Assembly (NCBI RefSeq): GCF_005796105.1 | Contig: NZ_VAUO01000002.1 | Coordinates: forward strand, 62,001 to 126,000 | Length of the DNA stretch: 64,000 bases | Source: Pseudomonas mosselii | Lineage (GTDB): Bacteria > Pseudomonadota > Gammaproteobacteria > Pseudomonadales > Pseudomonadaceae | Direction: 5' to 3' | Shown: positions 53,454 to 64,000 of the stretch, one piece after another | Layout of the letters: each line of letters opens with the position of its first letter | Position numbering within the stretch: the stretch's first letter is position 1 | Program-made: the position numbers and the translations under genes | The notes under the pieces: generated by a model | Database searches by the model: none | What the model was told of the DNA's origin: nothing | Seen by the model: the letters and a program-made list of their open reading frames with translations, nothing else

Positions 53454-55601
<2,148 letters not shown>

Positions 55602-55844
55602 TTGCCACTCCAAAATCGCCGCACCAACCTGCACACAGGCTGGACGATAAACCCGCCGCACGCGCACCGAATGCGTAAGCGGTTTTTGCCAAGTGGGCGA
55701 AAACGCCCCCGGCATGAAAAGCCGCGCAGTATACCCGAGTGCTCCACGCCCCGGCATGCCCCGGTGACAGACGTTCCCTTTACCCTGCCAGCGCCGCAAG
55801 GTGCTAGAATTCACTATCGTTTATTCCCCCAAGGTAGCCCTGTA

Positions 55845-56437: not shown

Positions 56438-56806
56438 GTGGTGCGCTACCTGCTGCTGGCCGTCGGCTGGCTCAGCGTCGCGCTGGGGGTGGCGGGGATA
56501 TTCCTGCCGGTACTGCCCACCACGCCCTTTTTGCTGCTGGCAGCGGCCTGCTTTGGCCGCAGCTCGCCGCGCTTTCATGCCTGGCTGGTCCACCACCCGA
56601 AGCTCGGGCCTTGGATCCGCGACTACCTCAGCGGTGAAGGCATTCCGCTCAAGGGTAAGGTGTACGCGATTGGCCTGATGTGGGCGAGCATCAGCCTGTC
56701 TTGCTACTTGGTGCCGCTGTTCTGGGCACGCGTGTTCATGCTGACCAGCGCGGTACTGGTCAGCCTGTACATCCTGCGGCAGAAAACCCTGCGCCGACCG
56801 CACTGA
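56438..56806 (+). CDS. YbaN/DUF454-family inner-membrane protein
   Basis: A 122-aa membrane protein with three helices and the family segment GIFLPVLPTTPFLLLAAACF (about 20-39). Two GTG codons in tandem (56438 and 56441) can start it; relatives begin at the second (VRYLLLAVGW). The function is not known. It is coupled to the YecA-type gene. Confidence 0.87.
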   Translation: MVRYLLLAVGWLSVALGVAGIFLPVLPTTPFLLLAAACFGRSSPRFHAWLVHHPKLGPWIRDYLSGEGIPLKGKVYAIGLMWASISLSCYLVPLFWARVFMLTSAVLVSLYILRQKTLRRPH

Positions 56807-56895: not shown

Positions 56896-59800
56896 CTACA
56901 CCGTATCCACCTTCAACGAATGATCATTGAGCATGCCGTTGATGATGGTCGCGGTGTCATGCCCTGCGGCGATCAACCCGCCCGCCCCGGCCGAGACGCC
57001 ATAGTGCTGGGCAAGGTCTACTCCGGCCAGTTCGATGCTCTGGCTGTGCGCACCACCGCCAACATGGCTGACCTCGATGGTCGACACCACATTGGCCCCA
57101 GTACCACTGACCTTGAAGCTCAGCAACTCGTCCAACGAGGTTGCACCGCCCTGTTCAGCCTGCAAGAGCTGCGACAGGTCCAGATGATCGCTGCCCGGGG
57201 TGAAGTCGATGACCGTGTCATGACCACTGTCGCCCTTATGCCAAACGAACGTATCGCTACCCTCGCTGCCTTTGAACGTCTGTTCAGTGGCCTGACCATA
57301 CAGCTCGTCGTGGTCAGGGCCTAGCAGATTTTCCATGCCCGCCCCGGTCTTGGCGCTTCCAGCGTTGTCTGCTGAGTGAACGGGGTGCTCGCTTGCCGAC
57401 GGATGCGGCTGACTGCCGCCATGCCTCACCGCGTCATCGGCCAGGCGCTGCCCCCCGTACCCGGCCTGGGCATCGTCACGATGCTCGTCATGTCCTGTGT
57501 CTTCAGGCCCCTTGCCAGCCTGGCTGTAATCCACCGCCAGGTTCAGTTTGTAGTTTTCCGCAGCCTTGCTGCCGCCCACGCTGTCGGCCATGTTGGTCAC
57601 GCGGATGCTGTACTGCCCGTCATGGCTTGCCGTGAAGCTGCCGCCATCGGCCAAGGTCTGGTAGCTGCCGCCAGCATCCTTCCAGGCCAGCACCAGGTTA
57701 CCGGCAGGGCGATCGTGGTCGAGGGTCAGCGTCTCGCCCTTGTGCAGGTTGACAGTGAAGCGGTCCTCGGCATTGGCGCCGCCCACTGCGCCCAGGTAAC
57801 CCGCCACCACCAGCGCGGCGGTCATGCTGCCCGCAAGGCCGGTGAATTCGCTGCGCGCCAAGTCGCGGTACTGGTTCGCCGCCTTGTTTTCCGGGGCATC
57901 GAAACGAATCACCTGGGCTTGACTGGCTGCGCCGGCGTCGTGATGACTTTGCGCTTGCTGGCCAGGTCCACGCCCCTGATCGTCGCAGTCTGCCGGTTTG
58001 CCGTCCTTGACGTTGAGGGTGATGGTCGTGGTGCTTTCGTCACCGTCGGCATCGCGGATGGTGTAGACAAAGGTGTCGCTGGCCCACGCTGGCAAGTGGT
58101 GATTCGAATAGGCGTGGTAGGTGCCCATGCCTTGGGCGTCGAGGACGAGATAACCGTACTGCCCGGTGATCTGCTCACCCACATGGCCGATGGCCGAGGT
58201 GGAGGTGTCGCCACCCGCGCGTACACCGACCACGTACTGGCCGTCGGCGCGCACGTCGGCGCCAATCACATCGTTGGCCAGCACATTACCGCTGACGCTG
58301 CCGCCTTGGCTGACATCAGCGTAATCGCAATGTGCCTGGGGCACGTCGTCGACGATGTTGATGACGATGGTGCTGGTGGTGGTATTGCCCAGCGAATCCT
58401 TCACTTGGTAGGTGAAACTTTCGCTGACCACGTTCGCACCGTCGTTGGCGTGGGTTGGCGAATTGGGCGCAGAGGTCAGGGTATAGGTGTAGCTACCATC
58501 GGCGTTGAGCAGTATCTGCCCGTACTGCCCCATGGCATTGCCCACCAAGCTGAAGGTCAGCGCACCGACCCCGCCACTCACGGCATCGGCCACCGAACCG
58601 CTGGCGGTCTCGGCACTGGAATGCGGATCGCTGCCCACCACCGTGCCCGGCGCCAGGTCGTTGCCGGTCTTGCACAGGTCCAGGGCTTTCTCATACACCG
58701 TCACGTCACTGTCGACGCCAGCCACCAACTTGCAGTCCTGCACATTGATCTGGACGACCGTGGTGCTTTCATCGCCATCGGCGTCGCGGATGGTGTAGAC
58801 GAAGCTGTCGTAGGCCCACGGCGGCAACACGCTGTTGGCGTTGGCATGGTAAGTGGCGTTGCCTTGGGCATCGAGGGTCAGGTAACCGTACAAGCCAGTG
58901 ATCTGCTCACCCACGTGGCCGATGGCCGAGGTGGAGGTATCGTGACCTGCGCGTACACCGACCACGTACTGGCCATCTGCGCGCACATCGGCGCCAATCA
59001 CATCGTTGGCCAGCACATTACCGCTGACACTGCCGCCTTGGCTGACATCGGCGTAATCGCAATGTGCCTGGGGCACGTCGTCGACAATGTTGATGACGAT
59101 GGTGCTGGTGGTGGTATTGCCCAGCGAATCCTTCACTTGGTAGGTGAAGCTTTCGCTGACCACGTTCGCGCCGTCGTTAGCGTGGGTTGGCGAATTGGGC
59201 GCGGAGGTCAGGGTATAGGTGTAGCTACCATCAGCGTTGAGCAGGATCTGCCCGTACTGCCCCATGGCATTGCCCACCAAGCTGAAGGTCAGCGCACCGA
59301 CCCCGCCGCTCACGGCATCGGCCACCGAACCGCTAGCGGTCTCGGCACTGGAATGCGGATCGCTGCCCACCACCGTGCCCGGCGCCAGGTCGTTGCCGGT
59401 CTTGCACAGGTCCAGGGCTTTCTCATACACCGTCACGTCACTGTCGACGCCAGCCACCAACTTGCAGTCCTGCACATTGATCTGGACGACCGTGGTGCTT
59501 TCATCGCCATCGGCGTCGCGGATGGTGTAGACGAAGCTGTCGTAGGCCCACGGCGGCAACACGCTGTTGGCGTTGGCATGGTAAGTGGCGTTGCCCTGGG
59601 CATCGAGGGTCAGGTAACCGTACAAGCCAGTGATCTGCTCACCCACGTGGCCGATGGCCGAGGTGGAGGTATCGTGGCCTGCGCGTACACCGACCACGTA
59701 CTGGCCATCTGCGAGCACATCGGCGCCAATCACATCGTTGGCCAGCACATTACCGCTGACAGTGCCGCCTTGGCTGACATCGGCGTAATCGCAATGTGCC

Positions 59801-62800
59801 TGGGGCACGTCGTCGACAATGTTGATGACGATGGTGCTGGTGGTGGTATTGCCCAGCGAATCCTTCACTTGGTAGGTGAAGCTTTCGCTGACCACGTTCG
59901 CGCCGTCGTTAGCGTGGGTTGGCGAATTGGGCGCGGAGGTCAGGGTATAGGTGTAGCTACCATCAGCGTTGAGCAGGATCTGCCCGTACTGCCCCATGGC
60001 ATTGCCCACCAAGCTGAAGGTCAGCGCACCGACCCCGCCGCTCACGGCATCGGCCACCGAACCGCTAGCGGTCTCGGCACTGGAATGCGGATCGCTGCCC
60101 ACCACCGTGCCCGGCGCCAGGTCGTTGCCGGTCTTGCACAGGTCCAGGGCTTTCTCATACACCGTCACGTCATCCTCACCGGCCACCAGCTTGCAGTCCT
60201 GCACATTGATGGTGATGGTTGCGGTGCTCTCGTCGCCATCGGCATCGCGGATGGTGTAGACGAAGGTGTCGCTGGCCCACTGTGGCAGGGGCTGGTTGGC
60301 GTTGGCGTGATAAGTGCCATTACCGTCAGCGTCCAGGATCAGGTAGCCGTACACACCATTGATCTGCTCGCCCACATGGCCGATGGCCGAGGTGGAGGTG
60401 TCGCCACCCGCGCGTACACCGACCACGTAGTGGCTATCTGCGCGCACGTCGGCGCCAATCACATCGTTGGCCAGCACGTTGCCGCTGACGCTGCCGCCCT
60501 CGGTGACGTCGGCGAAATCACAATGCGCCTTGGGTACATCATCGACAATGCTGACATCCAACGAGCCACTGGCGGCGCTGCCGTCGAGGTCGGTCGCGGT
60601 GACGGTGAAGTGTTCCACCAAGCTGTTGGTGCCGTCGCCATTGGCGTGGGTTTCGTTGTCCAGCAGTTGATAGGTGTAGCTGACCACCCCGGTGTCCGGG
60701 TTGTAGCCGGTGATGGTCAAAGTGTTGCCCAAAGGCGTGGTGACCGACTGCGGGAAGCCTGCTGCCACGCCGTCATTGACCAGAATGATGCCCCCTACGG
60801 CCAGGGTTTTCAGGCCGTCCGGCGCGTTGACGATGAAGGTGCCGCCTTGAGTCAGGTCGGCAGGGTTGGGCGCACTGCCGTCGCAGAGGTTCTTCTCGTA
60901 GACCTTGATCTCCCCGCCTTCGACATCTAGCCCACAGAGCTTGACCGGATCATCGAGGTTCTTGATATCCAAGGTAAGCGTGGCCGTACTGGTATCGCCG
61001 TCGGCGTCCTTGATCGTGTAGGTGAAGTGTTCCACGCCCGCACCGCCGCCGAGCAACTGCTTGAAGTCCGGGTCGCTGGTGTCGAGGGTGTAGGTGTAGG
61101 AGCCGTCGGCGTTCAGCAGCAGGGTGCCGTAGGTGCCGGTGAAGCTGCCGCCCTGGACCATGCCGCCCGGCACGCGGTCGGCGCCCTGGGTGTCGTTGTC
61201 CAGCACATTGCCGGTCAGCTCGGTGTGCAGTTCAGTGGCAGGCGTGGCGTTTTGGTCATCCACCGCTTTGGGCACGTCGTCGATGATGTTCACGTCCAGC
61301 GAGCCGCTGGCGATGCTGCCGTCCCCATCGGTCGCGGTGACGGTGAAGTGTTCTGAAAGGCTGTTGGTGCCGTCGCCGTTGGCGTGGGTTTCGTTGTCGA
61401 GCAGTTGATAGGTGTAGCTGACCACCCCGGTGTCCGCGTTGTAGCGGGTGATGGTCAAAGTGTTGCCCAAAGGCGTGGTGACCGACTGCGGGAAGCCCGC
61501 CGCTACCCCACCGCTGACTACCGCAATGCCGCCCACGGTCAGGGTCTGCAAGCCATCCGGGGCACTGACGGTGAAGGTGCCGCCTTGGGTCAGCGCGCCG
61601 GTGTTCGGTGCACTGCCGTCGCCCAGGTGTTTTTCGTACACCGTCACTTCACCGCCCTCGACATCCAGGCCACAGAGCTTGACCGGGTCGTCGAGGTTCT
61701 TGATGTCGAGCGTCAAGGTGGCCGTGCTGGTATCGCCGTCGGCGTCCTTGATCGTGTAGGTGAAGTGTTCCACGCCCGTACCGCCGCCGAGCAACTGCTT
61801 GAAGTCCGGGTCGCTGGTGTCGAGGGTGTAGGTGTAGGAGCCGTCGGCGTTCAACAGCAAGGTGCCGTAGGTGCCGGTGAAGGCGCCGCCCTGGACCATG
61901 CCGCCCGGCACGCGGTCGGCGCCCTGGGTGTCGTTGTCCAGCACATTGCCGGTCAGCTCGGTGTGCAGTTCAGTGGCAGGCGTGGCGTTTTGGTCATCCA
62001 CCGCTTTGGGCACGTCGTCGATGATGTTCACATCCAGCGAGCCGCTGGCCACATCGCCGTCAGTGTCGCTGACCAGCACCGGGAAATGCTCGGACAGCAC
62101 GTTGTTGCCCGCCCCATCGGCATGCTGATCGGCACCGGTCAGCGTGTAACTGTAGCTCACCACGCCCGTGCCAGGGTTGTAGCCGGTGATCGTCAATGTG
62201 TTACCCAGCGCGGTCGTGATCGACTGACCAACCCCGGTGACCACGCCTGCGGTGACCACATTGATGCCGCCGACACTGAGGTTGAACACACCGTCCGGCG
62301 CCACCACGGTGAAGCTTCCGTGTTGGGTCAACTGGCTCGGATCGTTCACCGACCCTTGCGGCAAGTTGGCTTCGTCGAGGGTCAGCTCACCCGGCTCGAC
62401 ATCCAGTCCCACCAGCGTAACCGGATGATCCGGCGGCGTTGGGGTAAACGTGCCCGGGTTGCTGTCGTTGCTGCGCTCGCCCAGGTAGTCACGGGCCAGT
62501 TCCGGCACATTGTTGAAGCCCGCCGTAGGAAAACCAATGCTAGGGTCGACACGCCCGGCCACCTCGGTCAGCAGCACAAAGCTGTGTCCGCCGCCCAGCG
62601 CACCATTGCCACCAGGATTGGGGCCGGCGGCGGTGGCCTCGGCATCCTGGGTCGGGTCACTGCCGGCTGCAATGGCGCGTTGCAGTTGCTCCACATCGCT
62701 GAGCTGCGCTTCGCTGGGGACGGCATCAGGCGCATGCAGGTGGGGCGCGCGATTGGCAAGCAGCTCGGGCGTCATCTCAAGGCTGCTGTCACGCCCCAGC

Positions 62801-62973
62801 GTGAGTTCGGCGCCGTTGTGCAGGCGCACCGCTACCGCGCCAGTGCTGCCGGTTTCCAGTTGTTCGCCCGCGTACAGCCGGTCGCCCTCCACCAGTACGC
62901 GTCGATGACCGTCGTCATCCACCGCGAATACCTGCCCGATCACCTTGCTGACCACGCCGACTAATCTGGCCAT
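56896..62973 (-). CDS. Giant type I secreted adhesin with LapA-like retention module
   Basis: A 2025-aa surface protein without a classical signal peptide. Residues 1-155 match the LapA/LapF retention module (MARLVGVVSKVIGQVFAVDD). TAAG at 114-117 is the site type cleaved by the periplasmic protease LapG, so release should depend on LapD and c-di-GMP. Residues 184-926 hold T1SS-143-like repeats of 246 aa, and 927-1657 three 243/244-aa repeats with VTVYEKALDLCKTGND and DVPQAHCDYADV. Then come a PPC-like beta domain (about 1680-1800) and a C-terminal VCA0849-type secretion target (FKGSEGSDTFVWHKGDSGHD). Fourteen cysteines are unusual for this class. The start ATG 62973 has a GGGGAGG site 9 nt upstream. 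A TolC-like gene diverges from it. Confidence 0.93.
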   Translation of the reverse strand: MARLVGVVSKVIGQVFAVDDDGHRRVLVEGDRLYAGEQLETGSTGAVAVRLHNGAELTLGRDSSLEMTPELLANRAPHLHAPDAVPSEAQLSDVEQLQRAIAAGSDPTQDAEATAAGPNPGGNGALGGGHSFVLLTEVAGRVDPSIGFPTAGFNNVPELARDYLGERSNDSNPGTFTPTPPDHPVTLVGLDVEPGELTLDEANLPQGSVNDPSQLTQHGSFTVVAPDGVFNLSVGGINVVTAGVVTGVGQSITTALGNTLTITGYNPGTGVVSYSYTLTGADQHADGAGNNVLSEHFPVLVSDTDGDVASGSLDVNIIDDVPKAVDDQNATPATELHTELTGNVLDNDTQGADRVPGGMVQGGAFTGTYGTLLLNADGSYTYTLDTSDPDFKQLLGGGTGVEHFTYTIKDADGDTSTATLTLDIKNLDDPVKLCGLDVEGGEVTVYEKHLGDGSAPNTGALTQGGTFTVSAPDGLQTLTVGGIAVVSGGVAAGFPQSVTTPLGNTLTITRYNADTGVVSYTYQLLDNETHANGDGTNSLSEHFTVTATDGDGSIASGSLDVNIIDDVPKAVDDQNATPATELHTELTGNVLDNDTQGADRVPGGMVQGGSFTGTYGTLLLNADGSYTYTLDTSDPDFKQLLGGGAGVEHFTYTIKDADGDTSTATLTLDIKNLDDPVKLCGLDVEGGEIKVYEKNLCDGSAPNPADLTQGGTFIVNAPDGLKTLAVGGIILVNDGVAAGFPQSVTTPLGNTLTITGYNPDTGVVSYTYQLLDNETHANGDGTNSLVEHFTVTATDLDGSAASGSLDVSIVDDVPKAHCDFADVTEGGSVSGNVLANDVIGADVRADSHYVVGVRAGGDTSTSAIGHVGEQINGVYGYLILDADGNGTYHANANQPLPQWASDTFVYTIRDADGDESTATITINVQDCKLVAGEDDVTVYEKALDLCKTGNDLAPGTVVGSDPHSSAETASGSVADAVSGGVGALTFSLVGNAMGQYGQILLNADGSYTYTLTSAPNSPTHANDGANVVSESFTYQVKDSLGNTTTSTIVINIVDDVPQAHCDYADVSQGGTVSGNVLANDVIGADVLADGQYVVGVRAGHDTSTSAIGHVGEQITGLYGYLTLDAQGNATYHANANSVLPPWAYDSFVYTIRDADGDESTTVVQINVQDCKLVAGVDSDVTVYEKALDLCKTGNDLAPGTVVGSDPHSSAETASGSVADAVSGGVGALTFSLVGNAMGQYGQILLNADGSYTYTLTSAPNSPTHANDGANVVSESFTYQVKDSLGNTTTSTIVINIVDDVPQAHCDYADVSQGGSVSGNVLANDVIGADVRADGQYVVGVRAGHDTSTSAIGHVGEQITGLYGYLTLDAQGNATYHANANSVLPPWAYDSFVYTIRDADGDESTTVVQINVQDCKLVAGVDSDVTVYEKALDLCKTGNDLAPGTVVGSDPHSSAETASGSVADAVSGGVGALTFSLVGNAMGQYGQILLNADGSYTYTLTSAPNSPTHANDGANVVSESFTYQVKDSLGNTTTSTIVINIVDDVPQAHCDYADVSQGGSVSGNVLANDVIGADVRADGQYVVGVRAGGDTSTSAIGHVGEQITGQYGYLVLDAQGMGTYHAYSNHHLPAWASDTFVYTIRDADGDESTTTITLNVKDGKPADCDDQGRGPGQQAQSHHDAGAASQAQVIRFDAPENKAANQYRDLARSEFTGLAGSMTAALVVAGYLGAVGGANAEDRFTVNLHKGETLTLDHDRPAGNLVLAWKDAGGSYQTLADGGSFTASHDGQYSIRVTNMADSVGGSKAAENYKLNLAVDYSQAGKGPEDTGHDEHRDDAQAGYGGQRLADDAVRHGGSQPHPSASEHPVHSADNAGSAKTGAGMENLLGPDHDELYGQATEQTFKGSEGSDTFVWHKGDSGHDTVIDFTPGSDHLDLSQLLQAEQGGATSLDELLSFKVSGTGANVVSTIEVSHVGGGAHSQSIELAGVDLAQHYGVSAGAGGLIAAGHDTATIINGMLNDHSLKVDTV
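58003..58734 (-). repeat. Adhesin type B repeat 3 (C-terminal copy)
   Basis: A 732-bp, 244-codon unit from CKLVAGVDSD to the NVKDG boundary. Its first half is almost identical to the other B units; its last third has diverged (GQYGYLVLDAQGMGTYHAYS). Confidence 0.92.
58735..59466 (-). repeat. Adhesin type B repeat 2
   Basis: A 732-bp unit in register with its neighbours and nearly identical in DNA to B1; only a few base differences are seen by eye. Confidence 0.92.
59467..60195 (-). repeat. Adhesin type B repeat 1
   Basis: A 729-bp unit, one codon shorter at its start (GEDD instead of GVDSD). A degenerate half unit (60196 to about 60530) precedes it. Confidence 0.92.
60530..60948 (-). repeat. 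Adhesin type A repeat 3 (half unit)
   Basis: The first about 140 codons of a type A unit (VKLCGLDVEGGEIKVYEKNL onward), ending at SIVDDVPKAH, where it is joined to a type B half. It marks the switch between repeat families. Confidence 0.85.
60949..61686 (-). repeat. Adhesin type A repeat 2
   Basis: A 738-bp, 246-codon unit from PVKLCGLDVEGGEVTVYEKH to LDIKNLDD. It shares a long, almost identical second half with A1. Confidence 0.9.
61687..62424 (-). repeat. Adhesin type A repeat 1
   Basis: A 738-bp unit beginning PVTLVGLDVEPGELTLDEAN. Its first half is more diverged than in A2 and A3; its second half is nearly the same as in A2. Confidence 0.9.
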
Positions 62974-63457
62974 GTGCGCACGCCTCCCCTGCCGATGGGC
63001 TTTTCGCAGATCAAGACATGTCGGGTATAACGTGCGCCGCTCCGGTGTTTAACGGTTGTTGGAGCGCCGTCCTCACGTCGAAAATCACATTCCTTGTGAC
63101 ACTGTCGCGATAGCGGTTACGGGTAGTGGCCACTCTTAAATGCCAATTTATTGTCGCCAAATACCGCTTTCGCCTTCCTCCCCGGTCTGCTTCGCTGCAA
63201 AAAAACTGGAACTTCCGCCGAAGCCCGAAAAACCGCGTATTCCAGACGATTCATCGAGCCACCTGTTTGCAACAATGTCGTGGATTCCTTAGACCTCATA
63301 AGTTTTTTTTCGCATATACCTTATGAAAAATTCTTCTTAGCTTGCCCCACAAATGTTCTTAGCTCTGTTGTTACAAACCTGAAACGGTTTGACTCTTATT
63401 TTTCGCCATTTTTTTGGCGATTGCAGGAACATTTTTGAGACCAGGGAGAAGTACCCC
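62974..63457. other. Divergent promoter region adhesin / TolC-like gene
   Basis: About 480 bases with no supported gene. The half next to the adhesin is GC-rich; the half next to the TolC-like gene (about 63280-63440) is clearly AT-rich, with a small hairpin TCGCC/GGCGA (about 63402-63421) in front of the start. I found no convincing -35/-10 pair on either strand. Confidence 0.5.
63085..63099. promoter_or_regulatory. Perfect palindrome TCACA-N5-TGTGA
   Basis: A 15-bp site with 5-bp perfect arms, 112 bp upstream of the adhesin start. The half-site order is the reverse of a Crp/Vfr site, so the binding protein, if any, is unknown. Confidence 0.35.
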
Positions 63458-64000
63458 ATGCGCGCTTTAACGCCCATCACCGGTGCAATTCTGTTGGCCA
63501 TGGCGTGTGCCGACAGTCAGGCGATGTCGATCACCGAGGCCGTCCAGAACGCTGTGGACCACCATCCAGAGATCAGTGCCAGCCGCAACAACAGGCTGTC
63601 GGCTGACGAGGATGTGAAATTCGCCCGCGGGGGGTACTACCCGACCGTCGACCTGGTCGCCGGCTACGGCCGTCAGCGCTCGGACAATACCAATACCCGT
63701 GGCTTCAACGCCGACGGCACGCGCAATCACAATAAAGAAACCCTCAACTACACCCAGTCCGAACTGCGCCTGCGCCAGATGCTGTTCGACGGTTTCAACA
63801 CCGCCAACGAAGTCGGTCGCACCGAGGCGGTCGCGGCCTCACGGGCCTACTACACCCAGGCCACCGCTGAAACGGTGGCCCTGCGCGCGGTCGAGGTGTA
63901 TCTCGAAGTGCTCAAACGCCGTGAGTTGGTTACCTTGGCACGTAATAACCTGCAAGCCCACTTGCGGGTCAACGACCAGATCGGCTTGCGCAGCGAGCGC
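63458..64000 (+). CDS. TolC/AggA-like outer membrane export protein (partial, 3' end beyond window)
   Basis: The first 181 codons of an open frame from ATG 63458, preceded by AGGGAGAAG. MRALTPITGAILLAMACADS is part of a signal peptide ending near SQA. The mature start MSITEAVQNAVDHHPEISAS, the GGYYPTVDLVAGYG segment and LRLRQMLFDGFNTANEVGRT are typical of type I secretion outer membrane channels of the AggA/LapE kind. It diverges from the giant adhesin and is its probable export pore. The inner-membrane ATPase and adaptor may follow beyond the window. Confidence 0.9.
   Translation, partial: MRALTPITGAILLAMACADSQAMSITEAVQNAVDHHPEISASRNNRLSADEDVKFARGGYYPTVDLVAGYGRQRSDNTNTRGFNADGTRNHNKETLNYTQSELRLRQMLFDGFNTANEVGRTEAVAASRAYYTQATAETVALRAVEVYLEVLKRRELVTLARNNLQAHLRVNDQIGLRSER

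Follow-up and report, generated by a model that had tools for sequence, protein, structure and literature searches.

The window analysed here, a 64,000-nucleotide stretch of a Pseudomonas mosselii contig, holds close to its end an adhesin gene whose frame runs uninterrupted through 2025 codons (Table 1). The N-terminus of the encoded protein matches the NCBIfam retention_LapA model (E 2.4e-42, cut-off 50 bits). The solved chain 5ix9 (“Antifreeze protein”), which we take to be the retention domain of an RTX adhesin, has this module in common with residues 3-118 (E 4.8e-13) and differs in the rest of its protein. Within the module, the predicted cleavage motif TAAG is preceded by DP (AIAAGSDPTQDAEATAAG), and LapG sites are described as [T/A/P]AAG following DP (PMC13090378). 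The body of the protein contains nine Big_9 Ig-like stretches and a Cadherin_4 match (Pfam), and also matches the T1SS-143, VCBS and tandem-95 repeat models of NCBIfam. The T1SS_VCA0849 target domain at the C-terminus passes its cut-off of 17.6 bits, and the protein ends in ...SLKVDTV, as its orthologues do. AlphaFold2 models of residues 1-170 and 1655-2025 were too poor for use, with mean pLDDT values of 49.1 and 42.9, respectively.

Back to back with the adhesin gene lies a gene for a TolC-type pore, likely starting at the ATG at 63458 and cut by the end of the window. The part within the window scores 114.6 bits against the type I TolC model, below its cut-off of 225.15, while the product of the whole gene passes at 309.1 bits. 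Past the window end follow an ABC transporter gene, whose product passes the LssB-type permease/ATPase model (908.3 bits, cut-off 693.1), and a gene for an HlyD adaptor (430.1 bits, cut-off 208.65), so that a complete TolC-ABC-HlyD exporter operon adjoins the adhesin. On the other side lie a DUF454 gene, presumably the one named ybaN, and a recQ-type helicase gene. The initial annotation had read the retention module, TAAG motif, repeats, type I C-terminal signal and divergent TolC-like gene from the sequence, and all are confirmed; the dedicated export genes that it proposed, with the ABC and adaptor genes to be sought beyond position 64000, were likewise found.

Table 1. Features of the adhesin locus. 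Positions are those of the window; window-equivalent positions extend this numbering past its end (position n of the fetched locus, L003, is window n+54999).
Feature	Position	Strand	Evidence or remarks
Flanking recQ-type helicase gene	53454..55814	-	RQC, HRDC, RecQ_Zn_bind; conserved place
Flanking DUF454 gene, called ybaN	56438..56806	+	PF04304; conserved place
mapA-type adhesin gene, 2025 aa	56896..62973	-	ORF, families, orthologous locus
C-terminal type I secretion target domain, residues 1919-2021	56911..57219	-	TIGR03661, 48.6 bits
Low-complexity linker, residues ~1820-1904, in place of the RTX array of orthologues	57262..57516	-	Alignment, 5 orthologues
Junction, residues ~1655-1690; place of vWA and linker in most MapA-locus proteins	57904..58011	-	Pfam, alignment
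Region of Ig/cadherin-like repeats; copies spaced by ~732 bp (four) and ~738 bp (three)	57998..62301	-	Pfam, alignment
N-terminal retention module, residues 5-153	62515..62961	-	NF033682, 144.6 bits; 5ix9 relative
LapG-type cleavage motif TAAG, residues 114-117; DP at 106-107	62623..62634	-	Predicted, sequence pattern
Candidate FleQ-type site TGGCGACAATAAATTGGCATTT	63138..63159	-	-320 to -299 from mapE; -186 to -165 from mapA
mapE (TolC-type pore), 5' part	63458..64000; gene ends at window-equivalent 64831	+	Families, ORF
mapB (ABC)	window-equivalent 64975-67119		After mapE
mapC (HlyD adaptor)	window-equivalent 67165-68520		After mapB

Both searches of the genome returned two retention-module genes, the window adhesin and a LapA-type start on contig C22 that lies beside lapE-, lapB- and lapC-like genes. 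This second gene (L005) is cut by the end of the 6.8-kb contig. The E, B and C proteins of the two loci are 50, 57 and 60% identical, and the Map and Lap systems of P. ogarae F113 are reported to be 45.8-61% identical (PMC7716237). Among 398 surveyed Pseudomonas genomes, at least 330 have a retention-module match. From the best-scoring matches listed, 80 stretches, mostly away from contig ends, were chosen by hand and joined with the window and eight earlier loci; the resulting 89 loci are thus biased to the Map type. The genes for E, B and C run divergently from the adhesin in 87 of them, the exceptions being L120 and L121, whose stretches showed no C, or neither B nor C. The cleavage pattern, DP plus [TPAS]AAG, occurs in 88 of the 89, with GP replacing DP in L119. 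Downstream, ybaN or recQ is present in 55/89 loci and in 27/34 of the putida type, some stretches ending before these genes. Where found in the other 88 loci, the E, B and C proteins are 71-94, 79-93 and 80-95% identical to those of the window. The same Pseudomonas map locus and neighbours, with exporter proteins 89-95% identical, also appear in a record titled “Pantoea sp. Ap-967” (L008), which is probably mislabelled.

In a tree of MapB, the window protein falls within a four-row Map-site set (support 100/95) that represents three genomes, two rows being the same gene, and its nearest relative is that of genome G188, at 93% identity. A single group unites the 11 LapB-site rows (97/95). Support is low (61/61) for the Map rows as one side of a branch, and the program warns that the long Lap and outgroup branches meet. 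In F113, mapA is PSF113_1511 and its exporter genes are PSF113_1508-1510 (PMC9279365). Judged by locus and exporter, the window system is an orthologue of a known one in an unusual, reduced architecture, and the adhesin is very probably MapA, the known second Lap-type biofilm adhesin of Pseudomonas, the named MapA proteins being compared by description only. With MapA-MapBCE of P. fluorescens Pf0-1 and F113 it has in common an adjacent exporter, the same range of identity to the Lap exporter and, by description, a retention module, a LapG-type site and Ig/cadherin-like repeats; unlike them, it has no vWA domain, no RTX array and cysteine-rich repeats. The LapA-LapEBC system with LapD/LapG resembles it in retention module, LapG motif, exporter type and c-di-GMP logic, but the Lap locus is separate in this genome and its exporter proteins are 50-60% identical to those of the window.

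The reduction concerns the C-terminal half. The described domains of F113 MapA are Ig, cadherin-like, vWA and RTX (PMC7716237). Ig and cadherin-like domains are present in the window adhesin as Big_9 and Cadherin_4, whereas Pfam finds neither a VWA domain nor a HemolysinCabind match. The sequence contains no GGxGxD motif and hence no GGxGxDxxx nonapeptide repeats, which places it outside the RTX adhesins in the narrow sense. Both Pfam domains are carried, for example, by the map-locus protein of P. reidholzensis (L011). The last ~120 residues, to the final ...KVDTV, are kept in the window adhesin and the five aligned orthologues. Among 81 full-length map-locus adhesins (L012, L014, L015, L049, L052, L060, L061 and L088 being excluded), the vWA domain is present in 74 and absent from seven. 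Pfam confirms the absence in the window (L003), L046, L054 and L083; that in L082, L084 and L116 is a tblastn result. The window adhesin is the only one of the 81 with no GGxGxD motif; L046, from G188, has one. In L052, L061 and L088 the adhesin frame stops early (1411, 1552 and 1231 aa), with the vWA segment encoded downstream, and L061 holds undetermined bases. In a quick tree built from the exporters (79 rows, L120 and L121 being further excluded with B and/or C not found), the vWA label needs five changes, at least four of them forced by well-supported branches; the domain has therefore probably been lost several times. The window, L046 and the vWA-bearing L045 share one unresolved fork of this tree, so the window and L046 may have lost the domain either together or separately. 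Deletion of the vWA domain from P. putida LapA gave less biofilm in several peptide-containing media, an effect reported for some but not all of the media and strains examined (PMC9180339); its loss here may accordingly matter for binding.

Four copies of the adhesin repeat are spaced at 732, 732 and 729 bp and are 81-85% identical to the reference copy; three further copies at 738-bp spacing show 84 and 66% identity. Tandem Repeats Finder, limited to periods of up to 500, lists no array in the window. As the genome is a draft of 64 contigs, there may be more repeats than counted here. Cysteine makes up 6.9 per 1000 residues of the window adhesin and 6.2 of the L046 protein, compared with a mean of 0.94 and a maximum of 2.9 in the vWA-bearing map-locus proteins and 2.1-3.5 in the five others that lack vWA; the window adhesin thus has about seven times the usual level. 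Three cysteine places recur in each 244-aa (~732-bp) repeat unit, and across 57998-60490 this content of three per unit lies far above that of other map-locus proteins. In L060 and L082, lineage-specific cysteines occur at other places. No pairing rule emerged from 662 aligned repeat pieces: six of them contain all three cysteines, while 66 (34 C-o-o, 27 o-C-o, 4 C-o-gap and 1 C-gap-o) contain the first or second but no cysteine in third position. It is conceivable, though we consider it unlikely, that MapA has become calcium-independent in this lineage, with the repeat cysteines stiffening or cross-linking the fibre in place of the vWA domain and RTX array. If so, a Lap-type adhesin would not depend on a C-terminal RTX roll whose folding is driven by calcium.

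The candidate FleQ-type site between the two divergent genes owes its support to its resemblance to a published footprint at the same distance. FleQ protects -319 to -295 of PP_4519, the gene called lapE in P. putida KT2440 (PMC8125075), and the other strand of this footprint reads TTGGCGACAAAATATTGTCACTTTG, the reverse-strand counterpart of the window site. One half of the candidate site, TGGCGACA, is found in 33 of 34 putida-type loci, and the second half is more variable. The motif alone is not significant, with two matches in the window at up to two mismatches, 0.50 expected, and as many in 8 of 100 shuffles. Much of the intergenic sequence is conserved, and the site consequently ranks 96 of 466 14-mers in the 34-locus alignment. 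The FleQ consensus itself is reported to be unreliable in F113 (PMC6120874), and FleQ footprints to fail to match it (PMC8125075). Transcription of F113 mapA responds to c-di-GMP in a FleQ-dependent manner (PMC9279365).

The genes lapG (C18:13998-14336) and lapD (C18:13388-13756) lie side by side on another contig of the genome. In type I secretion, the C-terminus of the substrate is exported first. By analogy with work on its relatives, the window adhesin would be exported through MapB, the ABC component, MapC, the adaptor, and the TolC pore MapE, until its retention module, remaining in the periplasm, plugs the pore and holds the chain on the surface of the cell. While c-di-GMP is high, LapD would hold the protease LapG; as c-di-GMP falls, freed LapG would cut at the TAAG motif and release the adhesin. 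FleQ and c-di-GMP may tune transcription through the site between mapA and mapE. This follows the Lap scheme of export, retention and LapG cleavage as described, and in P. fluorescens MapA is reported to be controlled by c-di-GMP, LapD and LapG (PMC13090378). With genes for both LapG and LapD in the genome, release of the window adhesin under c-di-GMP control is very likely. Lacking a vWA domain and an RTX array, the adhesin would rely chiefly on its Ig/cadherin-like repeats.

Several other readings of the locus were weighed. The initial annotation could not place the protein as LapA, LapF or MapA and proposed a further LapG-controlled adhesin distinct from all three, for which the unusual C-terminal half speaks: it is unlike reported MapA in having no vWA domain, no RTX motif and cysteine-rich repeats. 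The repeats looked unlike MapA because this copy is without the vWA and RTX domains of the F113 protein. Against it stand the divergent exporter (87/89), the LapG pattern (88/89) and the vWA domain in 74/81 proteins of these loci; the nearest kin, G188, has a similar reduced form in the same place, and a genome with only two retention modules has yielded no second map locus. Such a protein is therefore very improbable: the locus is of the mapA type with a Map-type exporter, and MapA orthology with the same neighbours, which had been named beforehand as the outcome against it, is what locus and exporter indicate. The parts for the proposed c-di-GMP control are there, with lapG and lapD encoded elsewhere in the genome; the status of a further adhesin is not supported. 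That the gene is the organism's own LapA, shortened and moved, could be argued from the LapA-type retention module and LapG motif, but it has next to no likelihood given that C22 carries another LapA-type start beside exporter genes of its own and that the C22 LapB groups with LapB-site proteins.

An assignment to the LapF/BapA type would draw on NF045619 (BapA/Bap/LapF), which the adhesin passes at 389.1 bits against a cut-off of 180. This model matches the repeats and does not discriminate, as 4/4 other map-locus proteins scanned pass it too; LapF is not known to have a LapG site, and we regard the assignment as extremely improbable. A decaying or misassembled mapA, whose vWA and RTX segments were lost by recent deletion or assembly fault to leave a non-working protein, gains some credit from the missing modules and from a draft assembly with repeated units. 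It is nonetheless improbable, in view of the frame open across 2025 codons, the C-terminal signal intact to its last residue, the separately assembled G188 protein with likewise no vWA and a single RTX motif, and missing segments that appear to lie outside the repeated units. We thus hold with high confidence that the locus is mapA-mapEBC, encoding an adhesin with predicted type I export, LapD/LapG release and FleQ control, in a copy without vWA and RTX.

The locus also bears on the pore that serves LapA in KT2440. MapE was searched for (E <= 1e-60) in 20 genomes that had a single, weaker retention-module match among the matches listed, and each yielded exactly one, of the Lap type in 11 (50-54% identity) and of the Map type in nine (72-85%). 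In seven of these nine, a LapB 85-94% identical to that of the window genome and a LapA-type start 78-85% identical lie 848-992 bp apart, too short a distance for a TolC gene between them. The mapE genes of these seven (L175-L181) have no mapA, mapB or mapC in the 14-18 kb stretch fetched, and the genomes no second pore at E <= 1e-60. Each orphan mapE, left alone where the map locus has been erased, lies beside ybaN and recQ (7/7); the opposite flank holds DTW and chemoreceptor genes in 6/7, and a FleQ-type site is present in 6/7. In genome G080 (L177), the single MapE-type gene has ybaN-recQ on one side and DTW-chemoreceptor genes on the other, as at the window locus, and carries the 25-base PP_4519 footprint exactly as published (PMC8125075). 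In the remaining two of the nine (G049, G114), E-B-C are accompanied by a divergent adhesin gene; these loci (L182, L183) are of the Map type in their exporter, and their retention modules are 46-47% identical to that of the window.

The LapE of KT2440 is needed for LapA display and biofilm formation (PMC8125075, PMC9180339), and TolC PSF113_1510 of the F113 map locus has been paired with PP_4519 (PMC6120874). PP_4519 has a FleQ site that matches the one before the window mapE and is equally distant, and it is very probably the orthologue of that gene, although it serves LapA, whereas the window gene heads a complete map operon. These sequence comparisons make it very probable that the “LapE” of KT2440 is an orphan MapE which LapA recruited when lapE was lost. 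Published labels conflict, since Pfl01_1462, 73.3% identical to PP_4519, is named LapE and not MapE (PMC8125075). A literature search found neither the word MapE nor, in titles and abstract openings, a statement of an orphan MapE; the original MapA paper lay outside this search. If KT2440 LapE is an orphan MapE, the two pores would be exchangeable between adhesins. Map-locus adhesins without vWA, on several branches, and here also without RTX, are in turn natural tests of module roles, addressing which modules bind, which only aid secretion, and whether calcium is needed.
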